Assembly: GCF_020012125.1 (NCBI RefSeq)
Contig: NZ_JAIFAG010000001.1
Span: forward strand, 3,038,001-3,102,000
Origin: Hymenobacter psoromatis
GTDB taxonomy: Bacteria > Bacteroidota > Bacteroidia > Cytophagales > Hymenobacteraceae
Length of the DNA: 64,000 bases
Reading direction: 5' to 3'
Shown here: piece after piece, positions 1 through 64,000 of the stretch
How positions within the stretch are numbered: position 1 is the stretch's first letter
Layout: each line of letters starts with the position of its first letter
Notes under the pieces: generated by a model
What the model was told of the DNA's origin: nothing
The model's input: the letters and a program-made list of their open reading frames with translations, nothing else
The model's database searches: none
Program-made: the position numbers and the translations under genes

Positions 1-613
1 GCTGCTCGCGGGCCTCGGCAGCGGTGAGGCCGGCCACTTTCTCGAGCTGGTTTTGCACGTCGTGCAGTTGGGCTTCGGCTTCCTGCTGCTTGGCTTGCAG
101 CTCAGCCAGGGCGGCTTCGTGCTTGCTCTGGCGCTTTTCTTCCTGCTGCTCGAAACGGGCGCGGTGGTGTTCGGTGTCGGCTTGCAGCTTTTCGCGGGTG
201 GCTTCCAGCTCTTTTTCCTTGTGCTGCAGGGCTTCAAGCTGCTTTTGGGTGGTATCGGTTAGGTGCTTGATGCTTTGCTCCTGAACTAGCACGCCCTGCC
301 GACGCTCGGTCAGCTCTTGGTCGAGGCCCGCTTTGAGACGCTGGCTTTCGGCCTCAAACTCGCGGCGCTGGCGCTTCTGCTCCTGCTCGTACTCGTTTTT
401 GAGGTTACGAAACTTATCTTTCGATTGCTGAATGCGCTCGTCGCGGGTGCGGGTGGCTTCGGCCTCAGCTTCGGCGAGGAGCTGCTGGGCTTGGGCGCGG
501 GCCGCGCCCTCGTGGTCTTGCCGGGCTTTGCCGGCCAGCTGGCGGCCTACCCCCACGCCCACCACGAGGGCGAGGACGGCGGCAATCGCGCAGTATAAAA
601 TTATAAGAGACAT
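1..613 (-). CDS. rny: Ribonuclease Y, N-terminal part (runs off the window)
   Basis: This reading frame stays open from an ATG at 611-613 to the window edge, giving 204 codons. The product starts MSLIILYCAIAAVLAL, a single N-terminal membrane anchor. A long charged coiled coil rich in Glu, Gln, Lys and Arg follows. This is the standard N-terminal layout of RNase Y, the membrane-bound endonuclease that starts mRNA decay; its KH and HD domains would lie outside the window. The gene follows zapA on the same strand, a neighbourhood common in Bacteroidota. A GGGGGTAGG octamer encodes Gly-Val-Gly next to the anchor. The identity rests on architecture and context, because the catalytic domain is not visible. 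Confidence 0.85.
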   Translation of the reverse strand, partial: MSLIILYCAIAAVLALVVGVGVGRQLAGKARQDHEGAARAQAQQLLAEAEAEATRTRDERIQQSKDKFRNLKNEYEQEQKRQRREFEAESQRLKAGLDQELTERRQGVLVQEQSIKHLTDTTQKQLEALQHKEKELEATREKLQADTEHHRARFEQQEEKRQSKHEAALAELQAKQQEAEAQLHDVQNQLEKVAGLTAAEAREQ

Positions 614-742
614 GGATTTTGGGAATTAGAAATGAACTAAGCCCATAGCCACGACAAAAACCCGAACCGAAACGCAGGAGAAGGCTACTTGCCTTCGATG
701 CGCCCGGCCGGGCCAACAAAACTGGTGGGTGCTACCCCGCCG

Positions 743-1036
743 CTAGGCGGCCAGCACCACGCCTGTTAGCAGCTCGTCGAGGCGCGCTAGGCGCTCGGTG
801 AGGGCTGCATCGGTTCCATCCTTTTCCTTGCTGACTTTCAGGGAGTCCGCCATTGTGGCGAGGGCTACCATCGCCAGCAGGTCCTGTTTGTCCTGAATCC
901 CGTATTGCTCCCGAAACTCCCGGAGCCGTTCGCTGAGCTGCCGGCCCGCCAGGCGCAGGCGCTCTTCGTCAGCCACTTCTACCCGCATGGGGTAGTCGCG
1001 CTCGGCAATGCGAATCTTGATGGCTAAGTCGTTCAT
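743..1036 (-). CDS. zapA: Cell division protein ZapA
   Basis: The 97-residue product begins MNDLAIKIRIAERDYPMRV and continues with a helical, charged region (LRLAGRQLSERLREF). It then has the ALATMADSL-type segment typical of ZapA. ZapA binds FtsZ filaments and stabilises the Z-ring at midcell. The length matches the family. The gene lies between an upstream coiled-coil gene (37 bp away) and rny (about 130 bp downstream), all on the minus strand, so the three probably share a transcript. The 130 bp before rny hold no gene I can support. Confidence 0.9.
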   Translation of the reverse strand: MNDLAIKIRIAERDYPMRVEVADEERLRLAGRQLSERLREFREQYGIQDKQDLLAMVALATMADSLKVSKEKDGTDAALTERLARLDELLTGVVLAA

Positions 1037-1072
1037 TCAGAGAGCAAATAAGAAAACGTATAAGAAGGTTTT

Positions 1073-1372
1073 TTAGTCCCTCAGATAGGCAAGGCACTTA
1101 TCTAGTTCGCGGATGTATTCGTTGAGGCGTTGTTTGAGCTCGTTGGCCTGGGTAGGTTCCCCGCCGGCTATAGTCTGCACAAGTTTAACAATGTTTTCCT
1201 GGTTTTGGTACTCGCGCAGCTGCTTTTCGCGCTCGCGGGCATCGGCGCGCAGGTGCTCGATGGTAACGTTAGCATCGGCCAGTTCCTCGCGTAGCTGCTG
1301 ATACGCAGCTACTAAGATGGTTACTTGTCGCTCCAGGCGGTCGAGTTGCGCGAGTTGCTGGGATGAAGCCAC
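1073..1372 (-). CDS. Small coiled-coil protein upstream of zapA
   Basis: I choose a GTG start at 1370-1372, giving about 99 residues beginning (M)ASSQQLAQLDRLERQV. An in-frame ATG at 1483 exists, but the extra 37 residues have no protein-like character and cover a CCTACCCCC octamer and the likely promoter. The chosen protein is almost wholly helical and charged, with heptad-like Leu spacing (LRADAREREKQLREYQ), and ends RELDKCLAYLRD. It has no signal peptide or membrane segment. The gene comes directly before zapA and is probably cotranscribed with it. Position and shape suggest a divisome accessory factor of the ZapB kind, but that is inference; I recognise no named domain. Confidence 0.7.
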   Translation of the reverse strand: MASSQQLAQLDRLERQVTILVAAYQQLREELADANVTIEHLRADAREREKQLREYQNQENIVKLVQTIAGGEPTQANELKQRLNEYIRELDKCLAYLRD

Positions 1373-1487
1373 GGTAAAGTATTGTTGAGCCCGCGAAGGT
1401 AGGGCGCGAACGCGGCAAGCCCCTACCCCCAGCGGGTAGCGTGAACGCTGCGAGTCCGCGCATAGAAACGTTCCTGCTAGCAACTCA

Positions 1488-1625: not shown

Positions 1626-4600
1626 CTATCCCTTCTTCTTGGTCTTCACCTTGCGGCCGTCCTCATCCTTCTTAGTTTTACCATCGGGCATGGCGGGCAG
1701 CACGGTCGAAGTAGGTACGGCCGCTGGGGCGGGGGTAGGCGCGGCAGTCACAGGCGTGCCATTGGCATCCAGCTCCTGCACGTCGTAGCCCAGCTCCGAG
1801 AGGCCGGGGAAAGCCTTGGCGCGGTCGCCGACCACTACAATATACATCTTATCGGCGGGCAGGTATTTCTGGGCCGATGCCTGCACGTCCTCCTTCTTCA
1901 GCGCTTTCAGGATGGTGCTCTGTTGCTGCACGTAGTCGGGCTTGAGGTCATACTCGACCAGGCGCGAGAGAAAGTTCGCCTTCTGCTGACCGGTTTCGTA
2001 GCGCAGCGCATCGCTCTGGCCCACTGAGCTTTGCAAGAAGGCCAGCTCCTCATCCGAGATACCATTGCGGTAGTTCTGAATTTCGCTCATAAACTCTTTC
2101 ACCGAGGCAGCGGTAGCATCGGCGCGCACGCCGGCCTGGGCGGTATAGGGGCCGAAGTAGCGCGTACCCCGGAAGCCCGAGTTGGCTCCGTAGGTGTAGC
2201 CTTTGTTCTCGCGCAGGTTCAGGTTAATACGCGAGTTGAAAGCCCCGCCGAGCAGGTAGTTCGAGAGGTAGGCTCGGTAGTAATCGCCAGTGGCGTCGTA
2301 GGCCAGCGGCGTGAGGTAGCCCACCCGGATTTCGGACTGCGCCGCGCCCGGCTTGTCAATGAAGTAAATCTTGGTTTTGTCGGGCTGCACCGCCGCCGTG
2401 GCCACGGGCAGGGTTACGGGCTTAGCGGCCCAGCTTTTCAGAAAGCCTAGATTCGGCTCCACGGCGGCCTGGTCCTGGTCGCCCACCACAGTGAGGAAGC
2501 TCACGCTGGGCGAGTAGAACTGCTGGTAGAACTGCTTCACATCATCGAGCGTGATACTACCCACGCTGGCCGTGGTGCCGCTATTGGGCACGCCCATGAT
2601 GTCATTAGGGCCATACAACAGCTTGGCATAGGCGTTATTAGCGATAACGACCGGCTGGGTTACCTGATTAGCGATGAGCTGCAAGTTCTGCTTTTTCACC
2701 CGTTCAAAATCGGCTGGGTCGAAACGCGGGTGCAGCAGCCGCTGGTCGAGTAGGGCCAAGGTCGCGGGCAGGTTTTTGGTCAGGCTCTGCACGTAGACCG
2801 ACGTGTTATCATCGCCCGCGAATACCTGTATGGTGCTACCCAGCCGGTCCAACGCCGCCGAAAACTCCTCGCCGGTGTATTTCTCCGAGCCTTCGTTCAG
2901 CATTTGGGCCGTGAGTGAGGCCAGGCCAGCTTTGCCGGGGTTGGCCTGCTCCAATCGGTGCCCGCCCTCAATAGTCAGCAGCATGGTCGTGGTCGGTAGC
3001 TCGGTGTTTTTTGTACCGATGAGCTTGAGGCCGTTGCCAAATTTATCTTCCCAAATGGCCGGAACCTTCACCACTGGGTTCGGCCCCGCCCCTGGCTGCT
3101 TCGAGCGGTCAAAGTTATCGGTGGCCTTCACGTATTTCAGGCCGTCGTAGCCGTAATTGGGGGCTACGTAGCCGGCCGTAGAGGCCGTGTAATTATCCTT
3201 GGCGGCCACCTCGTCGGTCTTGCCCTTGGGCACCACGCTCAGAATCACGGCGTGCTTACCGCGAATATATTTATCAAACACGCGCTGCACGTCGGCTTTC
3301 GTGAGGCTACGCAATTGCTTCAGCTCGATAGGCAGTCGATTGGGATTATTGAAAAAAGTCTGGTTGGCGGCGAGCTGGCTCACCTTGCCGCTCACGCTGC
3401 TTAGGCTGTTGATGAGCTGGGCCTCGGTGCTGGCTTTGTAGCGGGCTACCTGCTCGTCGGTGGGGCCGGTTTTGGCAAACTCGGCCAGCGTCTGGCGCAT
3501 CACTACCTCGGTGCTGTCCAGGCCCTTACCCGGTAGCGGCAGTGCCACCATCGCAAATTCGCCACTCAATTCTGAATTGCGCTGATATGCCTGGGCCTGC
3601 ACGGCTTTTTGGGGCTTCACCAGGTTTTTATAGAGCAAGGAGGTTTTGCCGCTACCGATGATATCGGCCAGCGCATCGAGCGGTACCTCGTCGGGGTTGC
3701 CGTGGGGCACGGTCGGAAACACCATTTGGAGCATTGGGAAGCGCACGTTGTCTTCGTAGCTCACGTAGCGGTCGGCGGTAAGCACGGGCTCGGGCAGCTT
3801 CTGCACCGGCACGGCCGGCCCCCGCTTAATGGGCCCAAAGTACTTTTCGGCCAGCTTCAGCACCTGCGCCGTCGTCACGTCGCCGCCCACGGTCAGGGTC
3901 GCGTTGTTTGGGCCGTACCAGCGCAGGAAAAAGTTCTTCAAATCCTGCACGCTGGAGTTATCCAGGTCTTTCAAATACCCGATGGTTAGCCACGAGTACG
4001 GGTGGCCATAGGGGTAGAGCGTCTTGGAGATATACTCGCTGGCCAGGCCGTAGGGCCGGTTGTCGTAGTTCTGGCCGCGCTCGTTTTTCACGGTAGCGCG
4101 CTGAATCTCAAACTTTTTCTGACTCACCGCATCCAGCAAAAAGCCCATGCGGTCGGCTTCGAGCCAGAGGGCGGTTTCGAGCTGGTTGCTCGGCACGGTT
4201 TCGTAATAGTTGGTGCGGTCCTGGTTGGTGCTGCCGTTGAGGGTGCCGCCGGCGGCCGTCACCAGCTTGAAATGCTGCTGGTCGCCCACGTGGTCGGAGC
4301 CCTGAAACATCATGTGTTCAAAGAAGTGCGCGAAGCCCGACTTACCAATCTGCTCCCTGGCCGAACCTACGTGGTAGGTCACGTCCACGTGCACCAGCGG
4401 GTCGGAGTGGTCCTCGGCCACCACTACCGTCAGGCCATTGGGCAGCACGTACTTGGAGTACGGAATAACCAGCTCGCCGGGCTTGCGGGTCACAGTTTCG
4501 ACCAGCCGCGCACCGCCAAGGGTGGGCGCAGCCGTCATTTTTTTAGCCGAAGCTTTCGGAGTTTTGGGCGCGGCTTGTTGCGCGGCGGCCGGGGCCGCTA

Positions 4601-4646
4601 CCAGCGCCAGCCCGCACAGCCAGGGGTAGGCAGAACGTATTTTCAT
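1626..4646 (-). CDS. Fused two-domain M16 (insulinase family) zinc peptidase
   Basis: The 1006-residue protein starts with a signal peptide (LVAAPAAAQQ), so it is exported. The zinc motif HxxEH is seen as HFFEH near residues 107-111, followed by the second-half glutamate region (ALWLEADRM). This active half is followed by a second M16 half that lacks HxxEH (around VLPATLALLDQRLLHP), as in fused peptidases where one half is catalytic and the other a lid. Family members degrade short peptides in the periplasm or at the membrane. The tail is Pro/Ala-rich with APTPAP encoded by a CCTACCCCC octamer, and ends in Lys (KVKTKKKG). It is probably monocistronic: palindromes flank both sides. Substrate unknown. 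Confidence 0.92.
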   Translation of the reverse strand: MKIRSAYPWLCGLALVAAPAAAQQAAPKTPKASAKKMTAAPTLGGARLVETVTRKPGELVIPYSKYVLPNGLTVVVAEDHSDPLVHVDVTYHVGSAREQIGKSGFAHFFEHMMFQGSDHVGDQQHFKLVTAAGGTLNGSTNQDRTNYYETVPSNQLETALWLEADRMGFLLDAVSQKKFEIQRATVKNERGQNYDNRPYGLASEYISKTLYPYGHPYSWLTIGYLKDLDNSSVQDLKNFFLRWYGPNNATLTVGGDVTTAQVLKLAEKYFGPIKRGPAVPVQKLPEPVLTADRYVSYEDNVRFPMLQMVFPTVPHGNPDEVPLDALADIIGSGKTSLLYKNLVKPQKAVQAQAYQRNSELSGEFAMVALPLPGKGLDSTEVVMRQTLAEFAKTGPTDEQVARYKASTEAQLINSLSSVSGKVSQLAANQTFFNNPNRLPIELKQLRSLTKADVQRVFDKYIRGKHAVILSVVPKGKTDEVAAKDNYTASTAGYVAPNYGYDGLKYVKATDNFDRSKQPGAGPNPVVKVPAIWEDKFGNGLKLIGTKNTELPTTTMLLTIEGGHRLEQANPGKAGLASLTAQMLNEGSEKYTGEEFSAALDRLGSTIQVFAGDDNTSVYVQSLTKNLPATLALLDQRLLHPRFDPADFERVKKQNLQLIANQVTQPVVIANNAYAKLLYGPNDIMGVPNSGTTASVGSITLDDVKQFYQQFYSPSVSFLTVVGDQDQAAVEPNLGFLKSWAAKPVTLPVATAAVQPDKTKIYFIDKPGAAQSEIRVGYLTPLAYDATGDYYRAYLSNYLLGGAFNSRINLNLRENKGYTYGANSGFRGTRYFGPYTAQAGVRADATAASVKEFMSEIQNYRNGISDEELAFLQSSVGQSDALRYETGQQKANFLSRLVEYDLKPDYVQQQSTILKALKKEDVQASAQKYLPADKMYIVVVGDRAKAFPGLSELGYDVQELDANGTPVTAAPTPAPAAVPTSTVLPAMPDGKTKKDEDGRKVKTKKKG

Positions 4647-4879: not shown

Positions 4880-7333
4880 TTACTTCCGAATCAGCGCGCC
4901 AGCCTGCTTTTCAAACTGTTGGATGAGCCGCTGCATCACCTGGTCAATGGCCTGGTCAGTGAGGGTTTGGGCAGGGTCTTGTAGGGTGAAGCTGACGGAG
5001 TACGACTTCTTGCCAGCCTCCAGCCGGTCGCCCTCGTACGTATCGAATACATTGAGGCCGTGCAGCAGCTTCTTCTCGGCGCGCTGCGCGATGGTGCGCA
5101 ACTGCTCGAAGGTCACGCCCTTATCTACGACTAGCGACAGGTCGCGGCGCACTTCCGGGAAGCGGGGCAGTTCGCGGGCTACGAGGGTAGGCTTATATTT
5201 TTTGAGCAGCCAGTCCCAATCCAATTCGGCATACCACACGGGCTGGCTCACGTCGAGGCGCTTGAGCACGGCCGGCGATACGGCCCCAACGTGGCCGATG
5301 AGCTGGTTTTGCACCAGCAGCCCTACCCCCCCCGCCAGGTACGGGTGCTGCGTGGGCTGCGGCGCGGCCTGCGGGTGGCCCAGCGCGGCCAGCACCTGCT
5401 GCACCGCCCCGGCCGCGTCGGCGAAGGTCGTTTTGCGGGTCGGGTGCTGCCAGCTTTCGGCGCTGAAATTGCCCGTTAGCCAGAGGCCAAGCACGGTTTT
5501 TTCGAGGTAGCCGCCCGCCGCCCGCTGGTAGGTGCGGCCAAATTCGTAGAGCTTGAGGTCGCGCTGGCGGCGGTTGAGGTTGTGGCGCACCACTTCCAGG
5601 CCCGAATGCAGCAGCGCGGGCCGCATCACGTTCAGGTCCTGGCTGTTATAATTCAGAATGCGTACCAGGTTCTCAGCTGGCGCATCGGCTGGCTCGAAGT
5701 ACTGCGAGTTGGTGAGCGAGTTGGTGATAATCTCCGAAAAGCCTTGGCCGCTGAGCAGGCTGGCCACTTTCTGGCGCACCACTTCGGGGTCGGGGTTGGG
5801 GAAGGGCGAGAGGAAAGAGGCCGAGTTGTGGGGCCGCAACGCCACGTTATTAAAGCCATAGATGCGCAGGATTTCCTCCACCACGTCGGCCTCGCGGGTC
5901 ACGTCCACCCGGTAGGGCGGCACCTGCAAGAGCCAAGCTTTTGAATTGGGAATTAGGAAGGAGGAATTAGGAGTTTTTTCGGTGATTTCCTCTTCGATCT
6001 TAATGTCGAGGTTAGTCAGGATTTCACGGATGCGCGCCTCGCTGATTTCCTGGCCGATGAGCTGCGCGACGCGGGGTAGGCGCAGGCGCACTTCGCTGTT
6101 GGGGATAGGGTGCGGAAACTCGTCCACGACCGGCGCGGCAATGCGCGCGCCGGCCACTTCCTGCAGCAGCAGGGCGGCGCGTTGCAGGGCCAGGGGCACC
6201 ATGTAGGGGTCAGTGCCGCGCTCGAAGCGGAAGGAGGCATCGGTTTTCAGGCCGTGCGCCTGACTGGTGCGGCGCACTACGGCCGGCGCGAAATAGGCGC
6301 TTTCCAGGAATACCCGCGTGGTGCCCGCCCCTACCCCCGACGTTTTGCCGCCAAACACGCCGGCCAGCGCCATTGGCGCGCCATTACCGTCGGCAATCAC
6401 GAGGTCGTCGGCGCTCAGCGTGCGCGCCACGTTGTCCAGGGTCACGAAGTGCTCGCCGGCCTCCGCGCGCTTCACCCGCAGGTGGCCGTCCGTGATGGCC
6501 GCCGCGTCAAAAGCGTGCAGCGGCTGGCCTAACTCGTGCAGTACGAAGTTGGTGACATCCACCACGTTATTAATCGGCGAAAGCCCGATGCTGCGCAGCC
6601 GGCGCTGGAGCCACTCGGGCGAGGGGCCGACTTTCACATTATCCAAGAGCAGGCCGGCGTAGCGCGGGCACGCTTGGTCGTCCTCGATGGTAACCTTGAT
6701 ATTCTCGCCCGCGGCGGGGGTAGCAAATTTGCTCACGTCGGGCAAGTGGGTGGGCTGGCCTAGCAGGGCGCGCAGGTCGCGGGCCACGCCGTAGTGCGAG
6801 GCGGCATCGGCCCGGTTGGGCGTGAGGCCAATTTCAAAAATTACATCTGAGCCCAGGCCAAAGTAATCGGCGGCGGGCGTACCGTCGGGCAGGTCGGTAT
6901 CGAGCACCAAGATACCGGCGTGCGACTGGCCCAGGCCAATCTCATCCTCGGCGCAAATCATGCCCTCGGAGGCCGCGCCGCGAATTTTCGACTTCTTGAT
7001 TTTGAATGGCTCGCCAGCCGTGGGGTGCAGCATCGCGCCTTCCAGGGCCACCACTACGCGCTGGCCGGCGGCTACGTTGGGCGCACCGCACACGATTTGG
7101 CGGGGGGTAGCATCGCCCACGCTTACCGTGGTCAAGCTTAATTTATCGGCGTCGGGGTGACGCTCACAAGTCAGCACGGTACCCAGCACCACGCCGCGCA
7201 GGCCGCCGGGAATGCTTTCCAGCTCAGTCAGGCTTTCCACTTCGAGGCCGGAGCCGGTGAGCAGCGCGCCCACTTCGGCAGCGGGCAGGGGGGTAGGGAA
7301 CAGCGTTTTGAGCCAGTCGAAGGAGATAGTCAT
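4880..7333 (-). CDS. pheT: Phenylalanine-tRNA ligase beta subunit
   Basis: The 817-residue protein has the full PheT layout: N-terminal MTISFDWLK segment, OB-fold tRNA-binding domain (about residues 40-155, GAPNVAAGQRVVVA), B3/B4 editing domain, B5 domain (VPPYRVDVTREADV), synthetase-like core, and a C-terminal FDX-ACB domain (LPRFPEVRRDLSLVVDKGVT). With PheS, encoded elsewhere, it charges tRNA-Phe. An oddity lies in the B5 region: a short insert reading TPNSSFLIPNS, encoded by an AT-rich tract at about 5941-5977 that resembles short tracts elsewhere in the window. The frame stays open through it. Several CCTACCCC octamers also lie within the gene. Confidence 0.97.
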   Translation of the reverse strand: MTISFDWLKTLFPTPLPAAEVGALLTGSGLEVESLTELESIPGGLRGVVLGTVLTCERHPDADKLSLTTVSVGDATPRQIVCGAPNVAAGQRVVVALEGAMLHPTAGEPFKIKKSKIRGAASEGMICAEDEIGLGQSHAGILVLDTDLPDGTPAADYFGLGSDVIFEIGLTPNRADAASHYGVARDLRALLGQPTHLPDVSKFATPAAGENIKVTIEDDQACPRYAGLLLDNVKVGPSPEWLQRRLRSIGLSPINNVVDVTNFVLHELGQPLHAFDAAAITDGHLRVKRAEAGEHFVTLDNVARTLSADDLVIADGNGAPMALAGVFGGKTSGVGAGTTRVFLESAYFAPAVVRRTSQAHGLKTDASFRFERGTDPYMVPLALQRAALLLQEVAGARIAAPVVDEFPHPIPNSEVRLRLPRVAQLIGQEISEARIREILTNLDIKIEEEITEKTPNSSFLIPNSKAWLLQVPPYRVDVTREADVVEEILRIYGFNNVALRPHNSASFLSPFPNPDPEVVRQKVASLLSGQGFSEIITNSLTNSQYFEPADAPAENLVRILNYNSQDLNVMRPALLHSGLEVVRHNLNRRQRDLKLYEFGRTYQRAAGGYLEKTVLGLWLTGNFSAESWQHPTRKTTFADAAGAVQQVLAALGHPQAAPQPTQHPYLAGGVGLLVQNQLIGHVGAVSPAVLKRLDVSQPVWYAELDWDWLLKKYKPTLVARELPRFPEVRRDLSLVVDKGVTFEQLRTIAQRAEKKLLHGLNVFDTYEGDRLEAGKKSYSVSFTLQDPAQTLTDQAIDQVMQRLIQQFEKQAGALIRK

Positions 7334-7411: not shown

Positions 7412-8050
7412 CTACTGCGGGGCCAACTGCTCGCCGGCCAGCACGGGCACGCTCAGACGGTTATCGGCGGGCGGCTTGGGGCAGCTGTACTCGTGGTTGT
7501 AGGCGCAGAAGGGGTTGAAAGCAGTATTAAAATCGAGCGTGATGTCGGCGGCATCGGGGGTGGGCAGAGGTAGGTCGAGGTAGCGGCCGCCGGCGTAGGT
7601 CTGCTGGCCGTTGGTAGGGTCTGTGAAGGGGAGAAACAGCTCCTGGCCCGCCCCTACCCCCTGTTTTTGCAGCAGCGCCAGCCGCTGAGGCCGGCCGCCC
7701 AACTCAAACTCGGCGGTACCCCAGCTCACGTAGGCATCGGCCGAGCCGCGGGTGAGGGCCAGCGGCAGCGGGGCCGGCACGGCGGCGCGGGTCAGGCGGG
7801 CCACCACGCGGTAAGCCGCATTGGGCTTGAAGTAGCGCAGGCCGCCAAACGCCGCCCGCTGCCCGGCCGGCAGGGGCGAACTAGGGCTCTCGCGGAAGGC
7901 GGCGTCTTTTTGCTGGCGCGCCCGGCGGATTTGAGCAGCGTAGGCGGGGTCGGCCGGCGCGGCGGGGGTAGGCGCGGAGCTGCCCAAAAAATTGTAGATT
8001 AATAAACCAACAACTGCCAGCAGGCCAGCGGCCAGGAGAATTTTACGCAT
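7412..8050 (-). CDS. DUF1684 family exported protein
   Basis: I choose the ATG at 8048-8050 (MRKILLAAGLLAVVGLL) over one four codons upstream, because it places the hydrophobic signal or anchor at the terminus. After a Pro/Ala linker the protein shows DUF1684 hallmarks: an early RRARQQKDAAFRESP segment, FGGLRYFKPN, and the C-terminal DFNTAFNPFCAYN followed by SCPKPPADNRLSVPVLAGE. The family has no established biochemical role. The gene lies between radC and pheT on the same strand, with a long palindrome just upstream. About 212 residues. Confidence 0.88.
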   Translation of the reverse strand: MRKILLAAGLLAVVGLLIYNFLGSSAPTPAAPADPAYAAQIRRARQQKDAAFRESPSSPLPAGQRAAFGGLRYFKPNAAYRVVARLTRAAVPAPLPLALTRGSADAYVSWGTAEFELGGRPQRLALLQKQGVGAGQELFLPFTDPTNGQQTYAGGRYLDLPLPTPDAADITLDFNTAFNPFCAYNHEYSCPKPPADNRLSVPVLAGEQLAPQ

Positions 8051-8163: not shown

Positions 8164-8919
8164 TCACAATATGCCTTCGTCGGCGAAGCTATAGTAGCCG
8201 TTATCGGTATAAATGAGGTGGTCGAGGATGGGCAAATCCAAAAAGCCGCCGGCCTCTTTCAGCTTTTTGGTTAGGGAAATGTCGGCCCCGCTGGGCTGGC
8301 GGTTGCCGCTGGGGTGGTTGTGCACCAGGATAATACTGCTGGCCAGGTGCTCCAGGGCCTGTTTGAAAATGAGCTTAGGGTCGGCCACGGTGCCGGCCAC
8401 GCCGCCGCTGCTGATTTTTTCCTGGCGCATCACCACGTTGGCGCGGTTGAGCAAAATCACCCAAAACTCCTCGTGGGGCAGGTCTTGTAGCGCCGGCCGC
8501 ACCAGCTGGTAAATGTCCTTGGAGCAAGTGATAGCCACGCGGCGGCCCGCGCCGGCCTCCTTGCGGCGGCGGCCCAGCTCCAGGGCCGCCACCACCGTGA
8601 TGGCTTTGGCCGGCCCTACCCCTGGGTGCCGGCACAGTTGCTTGATGCTGAGCCGAGCTAGCTCATTCAGGTCATTATCAGCGGCTTGCAGCATGAGCAT
8701 GCCCACATCTACGGCCGTAAGCTTGGTGGTGCCCGAGCCCAGCAGAATCGCAATCAGCTCGGCGTCGGAGAGAGCGGCGCGACCTTTCTGCACCATTTTT
8801 TCACGGGGACGGTCCTCTTCAGCCCAGCTCTTGATGCCGAAGCTGGCGGGCGGGGCGTAGGGCGCGGCCGGGGGCAAGTCGGCGTCAGCATCGGGCGAAG
8901 CCGGGGGGGTAGGGAACAT
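8164..8919 (-). CDS. radC: RadC family JAB1/MPN-domain protein
   Basis: The 251-residue protein has a Pro-rich leader, an N-terminal helical region with SDAELIAILLGSGT, a helix-hairpin-helix-like stretch (LCRHPGVGPAKA, about 96-106), and a C-terminal JAB1/MPN metalloprotein domain with HNHPSG at about 200-205 and the Asp at about 213. RadC was named as a DNA-repair factor, but its biochemical role remains unsettled; the fold suggests a zinc hydrolase or nuclease. It is chromosomal and not near any mobile element here. The leader contains a CCTACCCCC octamer encoding Phe-Pro-Thr-Pro. Confidence 0.93.
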   Translation of the reverse strand: MFPTPPASPDADADLPPAAPYAPPASFGIKSWAEEDRPREKMVQKGRAALSDAELIAILLGSGTTKLTAVDVGMLMLQAADNDLNELARLSIKQLCRHPGVGPAKAITVVAALELGRRRKEAGAGRRVAITCSKDIYQLVRPALQDLPHEEFWVILLNRANVVMRQEKISSGGVAGTVADPKLIFKQALEHLASSIILVHNHPSGNRQPSGADISLTKKLKEAGGFLDLPILDHLIYTDNGYYSFADEGIL

Positions 8920-51151: not shown

Positions 51152-51189
51152 GGGGGTAGGGGATTTAGAATAGGGAATTAAGCAAAAAT

Positions 51190-53225: not shown

Positions 53226-53516
53226 CTACTCGCTGGCGTTGGTCGGCTTGGCACCAGCATTATCGGGCGTCGCATCAGCCATAGAATCCTTACCGCCTTC
53301 GAGGCCGTTGGTCTGCTCGGCGTCGCCGTAGTCGCCGCGAATGCCCGCGCCGTCGCTGCCGGCCAAATCCTCCTGGGTAGCGGTTTCGGGGTTGCCGCTG
53401 GCGTTCTGGTCCTGGTCAGCGTCGGGGTTGGTGATGGGGCCGCCCGTGCTGGGCTGCTTGCCTTCTTCGATGGGGGTAGGGCGGCCAGAGTCGGGGGCGG
53501 GGTTGGGGGTTACCAT
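53226..53516 (-). CDS. Small acidic, disordered hypothetical protein
   Basis: I choose the ATG at 53514-53516 (MVTPNPAPDSGRPTPIEEGK); the frame is open from 53555. The 96-residue product is rich in Asp, Glu, Pro, Asn, Gly and Ala, with no hydrophobic core, signal or membrane segment (QDQNASGNPETATQEDLAGS). A GGGGGTAGG octamer encodes RPTP. It lies 60 bp upstream of the GHL10 gene on the same strand. Function unknown; such proteins are common in stress-related contexts but nothing here shows it. Confidence 0.55.
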   Translation of the reverse strand: MVTPNPAPDSGRPTPIEEGKQPSTGGPITNPDADQDQNASGNPETATQEDLAGSDGAGIRGDYGDAEQTNGLEGGKDSMADATPDNAGAKPTNASE

Positions 53517-54650: not shown

Positions 54651-55514
54651 ATGGACCTTTCGACCCCCGAGGCGGCCGCCGCGCACTTTGCCCAGCGCCC
54701 CGATGCCGAGCTGCTGTACCTGGCCCGCTACGCCCGCCGCTACCCGCCCGCCGTGGGGGCGGCCGCCGTGGTCGAGCTGCGCCGCCGCGGCCTGCTGCCC
54801 GAGGTGGCCCCGCCCCTACCCCCCCCGCCCGCCGCCACCGAGCCCGAACCCGCCGAAGCGGCCGAAGCGGCCGAAACCTGGGGGCAGGTGCTGCGGCCGG
54901 CGCTGCGGAGCCTGTTTTGGCCCACGCGCCAGTATTGGGCCGTACCACTGCTCATCGACCTCAACGTGCTGGTGTGGCTGGCCATGACGCTGAGCGGTGT
55001 ATCGGCCAGCGCGCCCACCGGACACGAGCTGGCCCGCTGGGGCTCCAACGTGTCGGGCCTGACGTGGCCGCACCAGCCCTGGCGGCTGGTTACCAGCTTA
55101 TTCGTGCACGGCGGCCTCACGCATCTGCTGCTCAACATGGCCAGCTTGTGGCTGCTGGGCGTGCTGCTCGAAGCGCGCACCGGCGGCGGGCGGCTGCTGG
55201 CCGTGTACCTGGCCAGCGGCGTGGCGGGTTCGGTGGCCACGCTCTGGTACCACAGCGGCGGCATCAACTCGACGGGGGCGAGCGGGGCTATTTTTGGGCT
55301 CTACGGCCTGTTATTGGCGCTGCTGCTCGGCAAGAAGCTGGTGCTGGACAAGTGGGACCGCCGTGGCCTGCTGGGCCTGGTTTTATACCTGGTGCTTAGT
55401 AATTTAATCTCGGGGCTCAGCGGCAATATTGATAACGTGGCCCACTTCGGCGGCCTGCTCATGGGCTTGCTACTGGCTATTCCTCTGCAAGTTGGAATGG
55501 AGAAGGGAGAATAA
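54651..55514 (+). CDS. Rhomboid family intramembrane serine protease
   Basis: The 287-residue protein starts with the same kind of N-terminal module as the previous gene (DAELLYLARYARRYPPAVGA, VVELRRRGLL) and a Pro/Glu linker. The rhomboid core follows: HQPWRLVTSLFVHGGLTHLLLN, then TGASGAIFGLYG with the nucleophilic Ser at about 210, and NIDNVAHFGGLLMG with the catalytic His at about 265. Six or more hydrophobic segments are present. Rhomboids cut membrane proteins within the bilayer. The attached module may recruit a partner; that is inference. Confidence 0.92.
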   Translation: MDLSTPEAAAAHFAQRPDAELLYLARYARRYPPAVGAAAVVELRRRGLLPEVAPPLPPPPAATEPEPAEAAEAAETWGQVLRPALRSLFWPTRQYWAVPLLIDLNVLVWLAMTLSGVSASAPTGHELARWGSNVSGLTWPHQPWRLVTSLFVHGGLTHLLLNMASLWLLGVLLEARTGGGRLLAVYLASGVAGSVATLWYHSGGINSTGASGAIFGLYGLLLALLLGKKLVLDKWDRRGLLGLVLYLVLSNLISGLSGNIDNVAHFGGLLMGLLLAIPLQVGMEKGE

Positions 55515-55612: not shown

Positions 55613-56617
55613 ATGCTTGCTCTTCAACTCGATGCCCCGCACCAGCCCGCCGTGGCGCGCGAAATTCCTACCCCCCAGCCCGCCACCAATGAAGTGCTGG
55701 TGCGGCTGCACGCCGCCGCCCTCAACCACCGCGACGTCTGGATTCAGCAGGGCCAGTACGCGGGCATCAAGCTGCCCTGCACACTGGGGGCCGATGGCAG
55801 CGGCGAAATCGCGGCGCTGGGCGCGGGCGTAACCGGGTGGGCCGTGGGCGCGCCCGTCCTTATTTACCCAGGGGTGGCCTGGGGCAACGAGCAGCGGGCG
55901 CAGGGCCGCGACTTTCGGGTGCTGGGCATGCCCGACCCCGGCACTTTTGCCGAGTACACTACCGTGCCGGCCCACTACGTGCGGCCCCGCCCGGCGCACC
56001 TGAGCTGGGAGCAGGCCGCCGCGCTGCCGCTGGCCGGCCTCACGGCCTACCGGGCCGCTTTCGGGCGGGCGCGGGTGCAGGCCGGCGAACGGGTGCTGGT
56101 AACGGGGGTAGGCGGTGGCGTGGCCTTGCAAGCAGCCCAGTTTTGCGCCGCGCGCGGAGCCGAAGTGTGGGTGACGTCGGGCGATGACGACAAGCTGGCC
56201 CGCGCCCTGGGCCTACCCCTGGGCCTGCGCGGGGGCCTCAATTACAAAGCCGAAAACTGGGGCCGCACCCTCACGCAGCAGGCCGGCGGCGGCTTCGACG
56301 TGATAGTTGACAGCGCGGCCGGCGCAGCCTTCGGCACCCTGCTCGACGTGGCCGCGCCGGGCGGCCGCCTCGTGTTCTACGGGGCCACGCTGGGTAATGT
56401 GCCGCAGCTGCCCGCCGCCAAAGTCTTCTGGAAGCAGCTCAGCATCCTGGGCTCGTCGATGGGCTCGGAGCAGGATTTTGACGATATGCTGGCGCTGGTA
56501 AACGAGCACCAGCTAGTGCCGGTGGTGGATAAAGTATTCCCGCTGGCCGAGGGCGAAGCTGCCCTGCGCTACCTCGAAGCCGGCCGGCAGCTCGGCAAAG
56601 TGGTGCTGACGTGCTAA
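55613..56617 (+). CDS. NADPH:quinone reductase-like medium-chain dehydrogenase
   Basis: The 334-residue product has the medium-chain dehydrogenase layout: N-terminal GroES-like domain (EVLVRLHAAALNHRDVWIQQ, PCTLGADGSGEIAALGAG), then LSWEQAAALPLAGLTAYRA and the Rossmann domain with VLVTGVGGGVALQAAQFCAA. It lacks the structural-zinc cysteines of alcohol dehydrogenases, so it is of the zinc-free quinone-reductase group. It reduces a quinone or enone with NADPH. A GGGGGTAGG octamer encodes the GVGG of the nucleotide loop. A terminator follows directly. Confidence 0.88.
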   Translation: MLALQLDAPHQPAVAREIPTPQPATNEVLVRLHAAALNHRDVWIQQGQYAGIKLPCTLGADGSGEIAALGAGVTGWAVGAPVLIYPGVAWGNEQRAQGRDFRVLGMPDPGTFAEYTTVPAHYVRPRPAHLSWEQAAALPLAGLTAYRAAFGRARVQAGERVLVTGVGGGVALQAAQFCAARGAEVWVTSGDDDKLARALGLPLGLRGGLNYKAENWGRTLTQQAGGGFDVIVDSAAGAAFGTLLDVAAPGGRLVFYGATLGNVPQLPAAKVFWKQLSILGSSMGSEQDFDDMLALVNEHQLVPVVDKVFPLAEGEAALRYLEAGRQLGKVVLTC

Positions 56618-57843: not shown

Positions 57844-58793
57844 ATGGGTACCGCCAGGTGCAGCAGGGCGTCGCCCTGGTTCACGACGGGCATGTAGTTG
57901 AGCCCGATAACGTAGCCGCTGAGGGTAGCTTCCAGGCGCACGGCCTGCTCGCCGTAGGGGTCGGCGATGGAACCGTAAATCTGGCCTTTTTCTACGTAGT
58001 CGCCCAGCGCCACGTGCGCCCGAAACAGGCCGGCGTAGCGGGCGCGCAGCCAACGGTGGCGCTGGCATACCACGTTGGGCCGGGCGGGGGTAGGGCCCGC
58101 GGGGCCCATGCCCAGGTGGTGCAGCACGCGCAGCGTGCCCGCGATGGCCTCCCCAATACCCGGCTCGTCGAAGCGCAGGCTCTCACCGGTTTCATACACG
58201 ATAATGGGCTTACCCAGGGCGTGGGCCGTAGCACGCAGCGAGCCGGTGCGCAGCCGCGCGTGCAGCGTGAAAGGGGCCGCGAAGGCGGCGGCCAGCGCAT
58301 CAATGGCCGGCTCCTCGCCCAACAGGCAACGCAGCTGCGGGTAGTTGGCCCGCGCCCGGCCGCCGGTGTGAAAATCCAGGCCGTAGTCTACGAGCGGCAT
58401 AATCTCGCGCATGAAGCGGTGCGCTACCCGGCTGGCCAGCGAGCCGCGCGGGTGCCCCGGAAACGAGCGATTCACGTCCTTGCCATCAGGTACTTCGCGG
58501 CTGAAATTAAGAAAGCCGTAAATATTGAGAATCGGAATGGCGATAACGGTGCCCCGCGTGGGCCGCAGCAAATCGCGCCGGATGAGCCGCCGAATGGTTT
58601 CGATGCCGTTTACCTCGTCGCCGTGCATGCCAGCCATCAGCAGCAGTACCGGGCCGGGCTCGGCAGCGCGGATAATGTGCACCGGCACGTCGATGACCGT
58701 GCCCGAGGGTAGGCGCGAGATAACCAGGCGCGTGAGCACCCGCTCGCCGGGCTGAATGTGCAGGCCATTTATCGTCAGCGTGTTGTCAGGCAT
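57837..58793 (-). CDS. M14-type succinylglutamate desuccinylase/aspartoacylase family protein
   Basis: The 318-residue product has the M14 zinc site AGMHGDEVNGIE (His at about 57, Glu at about 60) and a later DFHTGG segment with the third ligand. Other family segments are VIAIPILNIYGFLNFSREVP, DGKDVNRSFPGHPRGSLASR and VYETGESLRFDEPGIGE. The end has a beta-domain as in AstE/AspA-type enzymes (GDYVEKGQIYGSIADPYG). They remove an acyl group or C-terminal residue from amino acids or peptides. It lies 98 bp downstream of rimK on the same strand, which suggests a substrate tied to glutamate tails. Confidence 0.9.
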   Translation of the reverse strand: MPDNTLTINGLHIQPGERVLTRLVISRLPSGTVIDVPVHIIRAAEPGPVLLLMAGMHGDEVNGIETIRRLIRRDLLRPTRGTVIAIPILNIYGFLNFSREVPDGKDVNRSFPGHPRGSLASRVAHRFMREIMPLVDYGLDFHTGGRARANYPQLRCLLGEEPAIDALAAAFAAPFTLHARLRTGSLRATAHALGKPIIVYETGESLRFDEPGIGEAIAGTLRVLHHLGMGPAGPTPARPNVVCQRHRWLRARYAGLFRAHVALGDYVEKGQIYGSIADPYGEQAVRLEATLSGYVIGLNYMPVVNQGDALLHLAVPMQ

Positions 58794-58890: not shown

Positions 58891-59826
58891 CTACTCCGCC
58901 GGGTCGGGAGCCGCTTTTTTACGTTTGGGCTTGGCTTTGCCGCCACGCTTGCGCAGGGTGAGGGCGGCCGTGTAGTCGATGATGCGGCCGGCAATATCGA
59001 GGCCGGTGGCTTTCTCGATACCTTCGAGGCCGGGCGAGGAGTTGACTTCGAGCACCAGCGGGCCGCGCTTGCTTTGCAGCATATCCACGCCGGCCACGCC
59101 CAGGCCCAGGGCTTTGGTGGCCAGCAGGGCGGCAGCTTTTTCGGCGCGGCTCAGCTTCACGAGCGTGCCGGTGCCGCCGCGGTGCAGATTAGAGCGAAAC
59201 TCGCCCTCCTGGCCCTGCCGGCGCATGGCTCCCACCACTTCGCCATCCACCACGAAGGCGCGCACGTCGGCACCTTTAGCTTCCCCAATGAACTCCTGCA
59301 CCAGAATACGAGCCTTGAGGTTGTGAAACGCCTCGATGACGGACTGCGCGGCCTTGGCGCTTTCGGCCAGCACTACGCCCAGGCCCTGCGTGCCTTCCAA
59401 GAGCTTGATAATCACGGGCGCACCACCTACGTGCTCGATAAGGGCGGGCACCTCGTCGGTATCGTTGGTGAAGGCCGTTTTGGGCATCCCTACCCCCGCC
59501 CGGCTCAAGATTTGCATCGAGCGCAGCTTGTCGCGCGAGCGCACGATGGACTGACTATCCACGGCCGTGCGCACCTTCATCATCTCAAATTGCCGCACCA
59601 CGGCCGTACCGTAGAACGTGACCGAGGCTCCGATGCGCGGAATAATGGCGTCGGGCCGCTCCAGCAGCTGGCCCCGGTAGAGCACGCTGGGCTGGCCTTT
59701 TTCGAGCACCAGGTTACAGCGCAGGTGGTCGAGCACCCGCACTTCGTGGCCGCGCGCGGTGGCTGCCTCCACCAGCCGCCTGGTGGAATAAGAATTGGGC
59801 TCGCGCGAGAGAATTGCCAGTTTCAT
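58891..59826 (-). CDS. rimK: RimK-family ATP-grasp ligase
   Basis: I choose the ATG at 59824-59826 ([20 protein letters not shown]). The family pattern is complete: [98 protein letters not shown] and [18 protein letters not shown], which hold the ATP-grasp metal and ADP sites. RimK adds glutamates to the C-terminus of ribosomal protein S6. The last 25 residues are Lys-rich ([15 protein letters not shown]). It lies downstream of a RimB-like protease gene by 128 bp and upstream of an M14-type gene. Confidence 0.94.
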
Positions 59827-60460: not shown

Positions 60461-60609
60461 ACTACGTGAAATTTTAACTTAAAAATCGAAAATGCTTTTC
60501 CTGGGAAGAAAGATACGCGGGCCGCCCCTGACCGCCCCTACCCCCATGACCTATCGCAGAGCCGCCGCGCCCGGCTAGGCCCCGCTAAAAGTCGTTTTTA
60601 ATTTTTAAT

Positions 60610-60909
60610 TCAATGGCTTTCAGTCAGCAGGCGCTCATATTCGCGCTGGGTGCGCTCGCCGCAGTTGAGGCGGCTATAAGCAGCAAAGCCTTGCAGCGCC
60701 AACCCAAAACCCCAAAACAGACTGGTCCAGATGGGCCAGGGTAGCTCGTGGCGGCTGTGGCTCTCGGGCAGCAGCGCCCACAGCAGCCACAGCCCGGCAT
60801 TGACGAGAACGAAGACGAGCGCGTGGCTCTGAAACTTCACGCGGGCGCGGGCAACCTGCCACAGGCGCTGCTCGCGGATACTGGCGGGGGTAGGGCTGGT
60901 CGGCTGCAT
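60610..60909 (-). CDS. 2TM domain protein
   Basis: The 99-residue product has a soluble N-terminus (IREQRLWQVARARVKFQSH), two membrane segments (ALVFVLVNAGLWLLWALLPE, WPIWTSLFWGFGLALQGFAA) and a short charged end (ERTQREYERLL). This fits the 2TM domain family (PF13239). In other Bacteroidota it is often next to or fused to LytTR or histidine kinase genes, but here it stands alone. A candidate -7 box (TACTTTTG at 60941-60948) lies 31 bp upstream. Confidence 0.8.
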   Translation of the reverse strand: MQPTSPTPASIREQRLWQVARARVKFQSHALVFVLVNAGLWLLWALLPESHSRHELPWPIWTSLFWGFGLALQGFAAYSRLNCGERTQREYERLLTESH

Positions 60910-61069
60910 GGCTTGGGGCGTTTAAGGGGTGGAGGATGCTCAAAAGTATTTGTTGCCCTACCCCCTCGCAACTGGCCGCTGCCGAACCGTCGCCCTACCC
61001 CCCCGAAGCTACCCAAACGCCACCCGAAGCGTTGCGTACAAGCTGGCCCTACCCCCCGCGTTTCACCTC

Positions 61070-62514: not shown

Positions 62515-62558
62515 GATACTCAGTAAACCCCCCGCTGCTCCCTGGGGTTCGCAGCCGG

Positions 62559-62566
62559 CAAAGGTA
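62559..62566 (-). promoter_or_regulatory. Candidate -7 box of the ispH promoter
   Basis: The minus strand reads TACCTTTG, fitting TAnnTTTG, 44 bp upstream of the ispH ATG. No TTG at 19 bp. Confidence 0.45.
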
Positions 62567-62669
62567 CGGCCGGGGCCGGGGGGTTGCGCGGCCCTCTGCA
62601 AAGGCCGGGCCAAGGGGTAGGGCCGGCGCAACGGGCTTTCGCCCGAACTTTGCCGCCCTACCCCCACCC

Positions 62670-64000
62670 ATGCTGTTCAACTCGCTTCACTTCCTCGTCT
62701 TTTTTCCGGTTGTTGTCGGGCTGTATTTTGGGCTACCGGCGCGCTGGCGGGGGCCGCTGCTGCTGGCGGCTAGCTACTATTTTTACATGAGTTGGCGGCC
62801 CGTGTACGGGCTGCTGCTGGCGGCCACTACCCTGCTCGATTACCTCAGTGGGGTGCGCATGGGCCGGCTGGCCACCAAGCGGCAGCGCCGGCCCTGGCTC
62901 TACCTGAGCCTGGCCAGCAACCTGGGTACGCTGTTCATTTTCAAGTACTTCAATTTCTTCTGGGGCGCGGCCGGCGAGCTGGCCACGGCGCTGCACCTGC
63001 CATTTGTGGCCCCGGCGCTGGCGCTGGCCCTGCCGGTGGGCGTGTCGTTTTATACGTTTCAGTCGGTGGGCTACGTCGTGGACGTGTACCAGGGCCGGCT
63101 GCCGGCCGAGCGGAATTTGGGGCGGTTCGCGCTGTTCGTGGCGTTTTTTCCGCAGCTCGTGGCCGGCCCCATCGAGCGGGGCTCGCAGATGCTGCCGCAG
63201 TTTCGGCGGGCCCACGGCTTCGACTATGGCCGGGTGGCGAGCGGCCTGCGCCTCATGGCCTGGGGCATGTTTAAGAAAGTCGTCATTGCCGACCGCCTGG
63301 CCCAGATGGTGACACCTATCTTCGACCACCCACGCCAGTACCAGGGCCTACCCCTGCTGCTGGCCGTGGCCGGCTTCACCATCCAGATTTACGCCGACTT
63401 TTCGGGCTACACCGACCTGGCGCGGGGCGCGGCGCGGGTGCTGGGCTACCAGATGGTGCTCAATTTCCGGCAGCCGTATTTTGCCGCCTCGGTGGGCGAT
63501 TTCTGGCGGCGCTGGCACCTATCGCTCTCGGGCTGGTTTCGGGATTACGTGTATATTCCGCTGGGCGGCAACCGGCGCGGGCTGGTGCGGCGCTACACTA
63601 ACCTGTTCGCGGTCTTCTTGTTAAGTGGCCTCTGGCACGGGGCCAGCTGGACGTTTGTGGCCTGGGGGGCGCTGCACGGGCTGTATTTAGTAATGGAGGG
63701 CCTCACGCAGCCAGCCCGCGCCGCGCTGGCGCGCGGGCTGGGCCTGGCCGCCCGGCCGCGCCTGCTGCACGGCTTGGGCGTGGCCGCTACCCTGGCGCTG
63801 GTGGCCTACGCCTGGATATTCTTCCGAGCCAATTCGCTGGCCGATGCCTGGTACGTGAGCACCCATTTATTCCGGGGCTGGGCCCAGCTCACGCGCCACG
63901 AAGCGGTGCTGACCATCGGCCATTTCCTGCTCAACTACCCCCCCGAAGTCGCCGTGACGCTGGCCGCCGGGGCCTTGCTGCTAGCCGTGGACCTACGCCT
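62670..64000 (+). CDS. MBOAT family O-acyltransferase (AlgI-like), C-terminus outside the window
   Basis: From the ATG at 62670 (MLFNSLHFLVFFPVVVGLYF) the frame is open to the window end, 443 codons. It has the AlgI-like layout: LLLAASYYFYMSWRP, LASNLGTLFIFKYFNFFW, PVGVSFYTFQSVGYVVDVYQ, VAFFPQLVAGPIERGSQML, DFSGYTDLARGAARVLGY, DFWRRWHLSLSGWFRDYVY and the catalytic His in LLSGLWHGASWTFVAWGA. MBOAT proteins move an acyl group, often acetyl, onto exported polysaccharide or wall polymers. The partner protein would be encoded beyond the window. A CCTACCCCC octamer ends 5 bp before the ATG. Confidence 0.92.
   Translation, partial: MLFNSLHFLVFFPVVVGLYFGLPARWRGPLLLAASYYFYMSWRPVYGLLLAATTLLDYLSGVRMGRLATKRQRRPWLYLSLASNLGTLFIFKYFNFFWGAAGELATALHLPFVAPALALALPVGVSFYTFQSVGYVVDVYQGRLPAERNLGRFALFVAFFPQLVAGPIERGSQMLPQFRRAHGFDYGRVASGLRLMAWGMFKKVVIADRLAQMVTPIFDHPRQYQGLPLLLAVAGFTIQIYADFSGYTDLARGAARVLGYQMVLNFRQPYFAASVGDFWRRWHLSLSGWFRDYVYIPLGGNRRGLVRRYTNLFAVFLLSGLWHGASWTFVAWGALHGLYLVMEGLTQPARAALARGLGLAARPRLLHGLGVAATLALVAYAWIFFRANSLADAWYVSTHLFRGWAQLTRHEAVLTIGHFLLNYPPEVAVTLAAGALLLAVDLR

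Follow-up and report, generated by a model that had tools for sequence, protein, structure and literature searches.

Results

An octamer dispersed through the window and the genome

The window analysed here is a 64-kb stretch of Hymenobacter psoromatis DNA. It carries pheT, purB, a tmRNA gene, a gene with a TIGR02226 (BatA-like) domain and an rRNA operon, and scattered through it is the octamer CCTACCCC/GGGGTAGG, the subject of this work. The PurB protein of the window is 74-78% identical to those of four named Hymenobacter and at most 67% identical to those of the 76 further loci in the list; the genome (G000; 5.15 Mb in 7 contigs) therefore belongs to this genus. We found 72 exact copies of the octamer in the window, 40 on the plus strand and 32 on the minus strand. 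Dinucleotide shuffles of the window give a mean of 2.8 copies (maximum 7) and an order-3 Markov model predicts 5.1. Under that model CCTACCCC is the top 8-mer of the window, and the runners-up are overlaps of CCTACCCC itself. A preliminary description of this stretch had reported about 70 copies against about 4 expected; that observation is real, survives the Markov test and is larger than was stated. The first copy begins at 546, as described there, whereas the last lies at 63347-63354 and not at the reported end of 63344. The motif-free stretch of about 8.5 kb with the BatA gene and the rRNA operon is also found. The sites are listed below with their strands, G numbers denoting related genomes.

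Sites of CCTACCCC in the window
546-553 (+) site
1422-1429 (+) site
1732-1739 (-) site
4623-4630 (-) site
5322-5329 (+) site in pheT, antisense
6073-6080 (-) site; not in G034, G094, G020
6330-6337 (+) site
7290-7297 (-) site in pheT
7653-7660 (+) site common to G073 and G034
7965-7972 (-) site
8615-8622 (+) site
8906-8913 (-) site
9369-9376 (-) site
11619-11626 (+) site common to G073 and G034
12985-12992 (+) site
13159-13166 (+) site in spacer of called genes
13520-13527 (+) site in spacer; inverted partner at 13574
13574-13581 (-) site in spacer; inverted partner at 13520
14003-14010 (+) site common to G073 and G034
14975-14982 (+) site
16107-16114 (-) site, 94 bases from the tmRNA; not in G034
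17354-17361 (+) site
17480-17487 (+) site
17800-17807 (+) site; in G014; G073, G034, G094, G020 have GCTGCCGC
18172-18179 (-) site
18275-18282 (+) site
19217-19224 (+) site; G073 differs by 4 changes
21480-21487 (+) site, also in G094, G065, G088; perhaps protein-constrained
21749-21756 (+) site; not in G073
22211-22218 (+) site; not in G073
22586-22593 (+) site common to G073, G034, G014
23262-23269 (-) site
23977-23984 (-) site
24115-24122 (-) site
24153-24160 (-) site
25869-25876 (-) site
27072-27079 (+) site in purB, also in G094; perhaps protein-constrained
28077-28084 (-) site
29248-29255 (+) site common to G073, G034, G014
30295-30302 (-) site; G094 carries its own word CCCTAGGG there
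30692-30699 (-) site; not in G073 or G034, in G014
31045-31052 (+) site
31254-31261 (-) site
33032-33039 (+) site; not in G073, G034
33275-33282 (+) site
33283-41887 (no strand) motif-free stretch: TIGR02226 (BatA-like) gene at 33426-35480, rRNA operon at 35659-40626
41888-41895 (-) site
42392-42399 (-) site
42791-42798 (+) site in spacer of called genes
44126-44133 (-) site
45311-45318 (+) site
45517-45524 (+) site
48471-48478 (-) site
50289-50296 (+) site
50926-50933 (-) site
51153-51160 (-) site
52495-52502 (-) site
53134-53141 (-) site
53473-53480 (-) site
54815-54822 (+) site
55667-55674 (+) site
56105-56112 (-) site
56212-56219 (+) site
58087-58094 (-) site
59489-59496 (+) site
60537-60544 (+) site
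60887-60894 (-) site
60957-60964 (+) site
60994-61001 (+) site
61048-61055 (+) site
62614-62621 (-) site
62657-62664 (+) site
63347-63354 (+) site

The inverted pair in the spacer at 13520-13581 has a 20-base string, CCTACCCCCCTAAAAAAGGC, in common and is possibly a terminator.

The excess holds beyond the window. The whole genome contains 4,591 copies (2,364 and 2,227 on the two strands), against 134 (67 and 67) of the same word read backwards. A 344-kb sample of the chromosome, made up of the window and 14 stretches of 20 kb, holds 312 copies where 24.7 are expected. In this sample the word extends to a consensus of C(0.67)-CCTACCCC-C(0.74) followed by a C-rich tail of about 4 bases, and the flanks past that edge have no strong consensus. 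Forms with one mismatch are only slightly in excess, mainly at the first and last base. Copies are irregularly spaced (coefficient of variation 1.2), and their regional strand counts drift along the chromosome (15 stretches), a drift that is confounded with coding sense. The GC content is 60.5% in the window and about 60% in the genome, and CCTACCCC itself is C-rich. Among the smaller contigs, which are possibly plasmids, C2 and C3 have 2 copies each in their first 20 kb, and C5, C6 and C7 together have 1 copy in 15.1 kb, a total of 5 sites in 55.1 kb.

The word fills many codons that permit it

The density of the word in G000 is 0.893 sites per kb in called genes and 0.848 in spacers, which bears out the earlier view that it lies on both strands, in genes and between them. 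Genes were called with a simple in-house caller, two versions of which differ by one Pro-Thr-Pro site (83 vs 84). Within the called genes 191 sites run in the coding sense and 54 antisense, and the frame that would place a TAG stop in the gene holds 0 sites.

For each frame we compared the positions able to carry the word without a change of protein with the expectation from codon usage. Pro-Thr-Pro is spelled as CCTACCCC at 84 of 103 such positions (5.0 expected) and Gly-Val-Gly as GGGGTAGG at 42 of 70 (2.0 expected), the two tripeptides that had already been noticed in proteins of the window. The remaining classes in G000 are [APST]-Tyr-Pro (29 of 56; 11.0 expected), x-Leu-Pro-z (79 of 238; 4.2) and [GRW]-Gly-Arg (12 of 101; 0.1). 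The same-word genomes G073 and G034 resemble G000 in the first four classes, with Pro-Thr-Pro written as CCTACCCC at 16 of 20 and 12 of 14 positions; elsewhere the figures are 1 of 9 (G020), 0 of 6 (G088), 0 of 4 (G094) and 1 of 5 (G065). Species with another word fill their codons with that word. G094 writes CCCTAGGG at 19 of 45 positions in [APST]LG (0.5 expected) and at 3 of 7 in a second class (0.0); in the other six genomes neither class shows more than 1. G088 writes GGCTAGCC at 18 of 47 in [GRW]LA (0.7) and at 14 of 35 in a second class (0.9), where the others have 0-4, approximately the codon-usage expectation. Since the three CCTACCCC genomes also contain more Pro-Thr-Pro (11-14 per 10,000 residues) than the four others (3.4-6.0), the word seems to change protein sequences too.

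The word is found in sense and antisense orientation, in genes and in spacers, and so is favoured as double-stranded DNA. A signal acting at the RNA level was rejected, as antisense Gly-Val-Gly is filled at 42 of 70 positions and spacers are about as dense as genes. We also asked whether filling depends on spacing, using 423 encodable positions in four classes and leaving out [GRW]-Gly-Arg and positions less than 1 kb from the end of a stretch. Positions 250-1,000 bp from the next copy are filled much like those beyond (odds ratio 0.89). With no dependence on spacing beyond 250 bp, filling therefore proceeds site by site and not as one site per kb. The pattern looks like drive at each site rather than selection for one site per kb or mutation bias.

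Related species use different words

The main point of this study, that related species use different words, is not visible from the window alone. Whole-genome counts in 120 genomes of the genus show more than 1,000 copies of CCTACCCC in 14: G034 (5,122), G073 (4,810), G014 (4,602), G000 (4,591), G028 (3,509), G078 (2,816), G095 (2,575), G096 (2,341), G026 (2,219), G082 (2,204), G083 (2,051), G076 (1,521), G138 (1,047) and G129 (1,019). This distribution, and the genome-wide occurrence of the word, led us to reject a local repeat or an assembly artefact. G021, G033 and G119 hold 521-536 copies and the remaining 103 genomes 109-444. Outside the genus, copy numbers in 22 relatives at the level of the order range from 8 to 176, and in a few they exceed the reversed control several-fold (G037, 50 vs 7; G044, 33 vs 6).

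Two other words were confirmed by the same whole-genome counts. Sites of CCCTAGGG number 3,302 in G094, 916 in G033 and 902 in G021, then 177 and 128, with 1-58 in the other 115 genomes; those of GGCTAGCC number 3,011 in G088, 2,170 in G069 and 2,079 in G062, with 5-322 in the other 117. The search for over-represented 8-mers in relatives covered 75 samples, each 15 kb or longer and three of them named contigs, after four smaller sets had been dropped, and it gave further words from samples only: ACCTAGGT with ACCTAGCT (G081, G084), CTAGGCCA (G018) and GGGGCCCC (G012, G075, G115). No strong word was seen in 60 kb of G020 or 55 kb of G065, both close relatives. CCCTAGGG and GGCTAGCC are palindromic and CCTACCCC is not; on our reading, all Hymenobacter words but GGGGCCCC appear to match the form NNCT-ASNN. 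The words of close relatives are largely exclusive.

Some candidates from this search were set apart. In stretches of G010 and G112 (loci L139, L161, L269 and L270), GGGGGGCAA with A/T-rich sequence after it is in strong excess, perhaps as a terminator or a dispersed spacer repeat; the word GGGGGGCA of these two genomes was put aside because the A/T-rich sequence after it may mark a terminator. CCCTCTCC occurs 12 times in 20 kb of L145 (G104) against 0.3 expected, but it dropped below the threshold for separate bins when more sequence was added; CCCCTCTCCC of G104 was likewise below that threshold, set at 7 bins. Some weaker words that appeared a single time in the 20-kb samples, such as ACGTGTTC in L002 and TAGCCCAA in G092, were assumed to be chance. 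We also observed 158-322 copies of GGCTAGCC in G000, G014, G021, G033, G094, G118 and G080, many genomes of the genus having about 30-80; these are perhaps relics of earlier words. Literature searches that combined Hymenobacter or Bacteroidetes with motif terms, or used the bare octamers, gave no such word in these bacteria among the matches listed, and it is from these searches alone that we call the words not described.

Words and sites on the phylogeny

A tree of ten genomes built from 12,445 aligned columns has the form ((G014,(G021,G033)),((G000,(G073,G034)),(G094,G088)),(G065,G020)). Here CCTACCCC lies on two separate branches, and CCCTAGGG likewise. A PurB tree of 30 genomes, whose inner support is weak, also places G000 apart from G014 and G028; CCTACCCC is the only word on separate branches in both trees. 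Species with CCTACCCC that are more distant by PurB identity include G026 (76%) and G095 (73%). These placements indicate that words were switched, lost or gained more than once.

Most sites are kept between same-word relatives, conservation of sites being a point that the preliminary description had proposed to check. In pairwise alignments 22 of 34 orthologous sites are kept between G000 and G073 and 26 of 34 between G000 and G034, where chance would give 0.3-0.4; the permuted-word control, which overlaps the motif, was excluded. Sharing between separate branches is likewise far above chance (8 of 18 aligned sites for G000-G014, 3 of 7 for G094-G033) and may reflect common descent, parallel gain or exchange. 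The sites at 17800 and 30692 are missing in both sister genomes, G073 and G034, and present in the more distant G014; parallel gain, favoured by the outgroups, is the likely history of both. At 17800 the three changes from GCTGCCGC are all synonymous in the called frame.

How do orthologous places with and without the word differ? Against G020, 47 of the 72 window sites align; 8 of these have an internal indel, and the rest differ at 2.77 of 8 bases, compared with 2.05 in the flanks. The octamer is thus free of indels at 39 of 47 aligned window sites against G020, as it is at 29 of 32 against G073. Orthologous places differ mostly by substitution.

Words beyond Hymenobacter

A wider scan took in those of 80 loci that were at least 15 kb long, the best 20 being shown. 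A similar pattern, built on different words, is seen in two Pontibacter species and one Siphonobacter. In P. mangrovi (L007), 21 kb hold 37 copies of AAGTATA and 24 of AAGTATG (AAGTATR, 61 in total); in P. chinhatensis (L015) the numbers in 21 kb are 56 and 19 (75 in total). Both strands carry the word in each case, and the reversed words have 0-4 copies. Several AAGTATR positions look common to L007 and L015. In Siphonobacter sp. SORGH_AS_0500 (L032), TATCCACA occurs 23 times in 21 kb and its reverse 0 times, and T precedes it in 19 of the 23 copies. TATCCACA and TTATCCAC, with 23 copies each in these 21 kb, are dispersed in genes and spacers; together they match the DnaA-box consensus, TTATCCACA. 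In both genera most frames of the encodable positions are filled well above the codon-usage expectation. The best-filled classes are AAGTATG as Lys-Tyr-x (8 of 9, L007) and GTGGATAA (6 of 6, L032); poorly filled ones in L007 are the third frame of TATACTT (4 of 30) and the second of CATACTT (0 of 13).

Discussion

Why would some close relatives accumulate thousands of copies of an octamer, and not always the same one? We tentatively favour a system of octamers that mark self DNA and differ by species, CCTACCCC being the word used here, with biased inheritance through uptake or recombination as the most likely cause. The word would be read by a putative sequence-specific factor whose specificity switches between species, and each copy would favour inheritance of the DNA around it. 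Biased uptake and/or recombination of marked conspecific DNA would be the most likely step, like that of DNA-uptake-sequence dialects, and an uptake route of this kind, for which ComEC is available, would bypass the type IV pilus ATPase. The anatomy of the words, their dialects and their filling of codons are observed; the reader and its point of action are what we infer. The word-poor small contigs, C2, C3, C5, C6 and C7, also count in favour.

A number of observations, including those on pili and ComEC given in the next paragraph, weigh against this view. No reader protein for the word was found. Contig C4 holds 9 sites in 20 kb. The PurB tree groups G094 with G021, G033, G014 and G028, so that CCCTAGGG may have one origin, and the sites shared by separate branches may come in part from a word-bearing ancestor followed by later losses rather than from switching. 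Different words rarely coincide at one place (1 of 33 for G000-G094, with 0.2 expected, and 1 of 46 for G000-G088), and these counts do not support a hand-over of sites from word to word. Sites that differ among G000, G073 and G034 are not clearly different from control 8-mers. Their one-mismatch share is 16 of 38 against 0.52 in the control, and a multi-base jump is therefore not shown. Several words are present in G021 and G033, each in moderate numbers. Samples of 20 kb miss cases: G083 and G076 show nothing in them and G028 shows little, despite totals of 2,051, 1,521 and 3,509, and a finding of "no word" in thinly sampled species is therefore uncertain. Densities per kb in genes and spacers vary among genomes (G073, 1.04 and 0.78; G034, 1.04 and 1.72; G094, 0.69 and 0.48; G088, 0.68 and 0.38). 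Finally, filling drops where another site lies within 250 bp (odds ratio 0.51, chi-square 8.4).

Known uptake-sequence systems, including those of Neisseriaceae, depend on type IV pili. The uptake-enhancing sequences of Pasteurellaceae and Neisseriaceae occur about once per kb and affect proteins, as CCTACCCC seems to. In nearly all genomes here the ATPase family of the pilus is missing: PF00437, the type IV pilus/type II secretion ATPase, exceeds the cut-off in 3 of 120 genomes (G009, G102 and G011), in a search that scored 14 first-look candidates per genome, matched 14 of 14 controls (13 over the cut-off) and was confined to the ATPase. None of these three genomes is rich in CCTACCCC, CCCTAGGG or GGCTAGCC. 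Their matches (E 3e-123 to 1e-120) suggest an acquired secretion or pilus system. Weak matches under the cut-off occur in 9 more genomes, including G026 and G069, and G000 has none. ComEC is found in 119 of 120 genomes, the exception, G028, being 82% complete; it is also present in wordless species and thus does not discriminate. The palindromic CCCTAGGG and GGCTAGCC do not resemble known uptake sequences; they look more like sites of a methylase or a dimer. Hymenobacter has an over-represented word with species variants, and ComEC, but, judged with the ATPase as proxy, no type IV pilus in nearly all genomes. A route of uptake without a PilB/GspE-type ATPase is possible by analogy. In the part of the Riemerella study drawn on here (PMC8459023), transformation of this member of the Bacteroidota requires ComEC, DprA, ComF and RecA together with four functionally uncharacterised proteins, and it is reduced when insertions hit an outer-membrane protein linked to TonB; the same source describes the type IV pilus uptake machinery of Vibrio. 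The uptake dialects of Neisseriaceae, as presented in the corresponding part of Frye 2013 (PMC3630211), resemble the Hymenobacter words in having thousands of copies per genome and species variants. They follow phylogeny and have a CTG core in common, whereas CCTACCCC is found on separate branches and GGGGCCCC lacks the CTA core of the other Hymenobacter words. Further differences are that nearly all Hymenobacter genomes are without the pilus ATPase, that some words are palindromic and that an uptake role is here one we infer. The uptake-enhancing sequences of Bakkali 2007 (PMC1939737, likewise drawn on in part) behave similarly in their molecular drive, but their over-representation is graded by similarity to the word, while one-mismatch forms of CCTACCCC are only mildly enriched.

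Could a methylation mark account for the words instead? HIP1 of cyanobacteria lies in genes and spacers. On the model of Elhai 2015 (PMC4390886), in the portion used here, HIPs are tied to methyltransferases, and a repair ratchet makes sites until it halts near one per 1,000 nt. The same portion gives HIP1 and the alternate HIPs a density of about 0.5-2.5 words per kb genome-wide, with absence or replacement in some relatives, and the palindromic words with hexamer cores and the replacement of words seen in Hymenobacter match those alternate HIPs. A ratchet of this type, in which a species-specific DNA methyltransferase marks the word and methylation-directed mismatch repair makes and keeps the copies, is unlikely in our estimation. 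Word-rich genomes do carry methyltransferases of at least one tested family, and G000 and G073 have a PF01555 enzyme in common at 77% identity. Yet of the four families profiled, by membership rather than by enzyme specificity, PF00145, PF01555, PF02384 and PF02086 (two over 32 genomes and two over 120), none is common to all same-word species, with PF07669 and further families lying outside the search and different enzymes being conceivable in different species. G014 has one PF01555 protein only, G034 has PF00145 and PF02384 only, and G082 has PF02384 only, so that G014 and G034 have no tested family in common despite the same word. The single enzyme of G014 is about 80% identical to enzymes of G020, where no word was seen, and of G094, which has another word. 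In G088, with its 3,011 copies of GGCTAGCC, a single PF02384 protein is the only member of the four families. A requirement for a C5-methyltransferase was rejected, as PF00145 is missing from the word-bearing G014, G028, G096, G078, G026, G082, G088, G069, G062, G094, G021, G033, G084 and G115 among the 32 genomes searched. Nor does filling, the same at 250-1,000 bp as beyond, show the expected stop near one site per 1,000 nt. Hymenobacter differs from the cyanobacterial case also in being Bacteroidota and in having several words in one genus, both non-palindromic and palindromic. As a dispersed word in large excess CCTACCCC is like a HIP, but it is not a palindrome.

Chi sites, which stop or redirect a recombination nuclease of the RecBCD/AddAB type and protect self DNA, are likewise dispersed, species-specific short words over the chromosome, and a nuclease whose specificity varies by species could in principle read CCTACCCC. 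The orientation of the word follows coding sense and its regional strand counts shift along the chromosome, two points in favour of such a site. However, the sense bias is at least partly due to codon constraints, the sixth frame being a stop. The density is several-fold above that of Chi in E. coli, some words are palindromic, permissive codons are heavily filled and close species have different words, and to our knowledge no switching of Chi between sister species has been described; we think a Chi-like role rather improbable. Less probable again are binding sites for an abundant chromosome-organising protein whose specificity has drifted between species. Such a protein would fit a genome-wide word on both strands, alike in genes and spacers, and as a dimer it would fit the half-site pattern NNCT-ASNN of most words. 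Against it, spacing is irregular, it is encodable positions that are filled, and a switch would need rebinding at thousands of sites. The preliminary description had also allowed for mutational bias. That bias, codon usage or base composition produces the word is highly improbable. A C-rich word would suit a genome with a GC content near 60%, but the Markov expectation (5.1 vs 72), the reversed word (134 vs 4,591) and codon usage (5.0 vs 84 of 103 for Pro-Thr-Pro) led us to reject such an artefact, and related species of similar composition are without the word. We give the least credence of all to thousands of insertions of a very small mobile or repeat element. The high, dispersed copy number of the word, in spacers as well, would suit such an element, yet most alignable sites have no internal indel and the flanks have no strong consensus, and insertion of a mobile octamer was rejected as the differences are mostly substitutions with few indels.

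Thus, the likeness to HIP1 and to DNA-uptake sequences drawn in the preliminary description holds for behaviour, as the word is genome-wide, on both strands, in genes and spacers, and shapes the proteome; the specific mechanisms behind these two names are not supported as such by the tested methyltransferase families and the pilus ATPase. The word resembles both a HIP and an uptake dialect but lacks one tested defining feature of each, the palindrome and the type IV pilus respectively, and we do not file it as a member of either. Returning to self-DNA words with biased inheritance, we suggest, as a proposal that could well prove wrong, that Cytophagales carry an undescribed class of genome-wide self-DNA marks: CCTACCCC, CCCTAGGG, GGCTAGCC, ACCTAGGT and GGGGCCCC in Hymenobacter (the last two from samples), AAGTATR in Pontibacter and TTATCCACA in Siphonobacter. 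Such marks would be written site by site into permissive codons, would differ between close species and would have as their reader a fast-evolving factor independent of type IV pili and of any common methyltransferase, and they may serve as barriers or passports for DNA exchange.

What would this mean for these bacteria? If the word governs DNA exchange, the barrier to recombination would be an eight-letter code that differs between close species and works without the textbook pilus machinery; if it is a HIP-type mark instead, it would be one untied to a common methyltransferase. Close species with different words make the cause of word accumulation testable. In either case, the words distort proteins to a degree that matters when the evolution of proteins in this group is interpreted.

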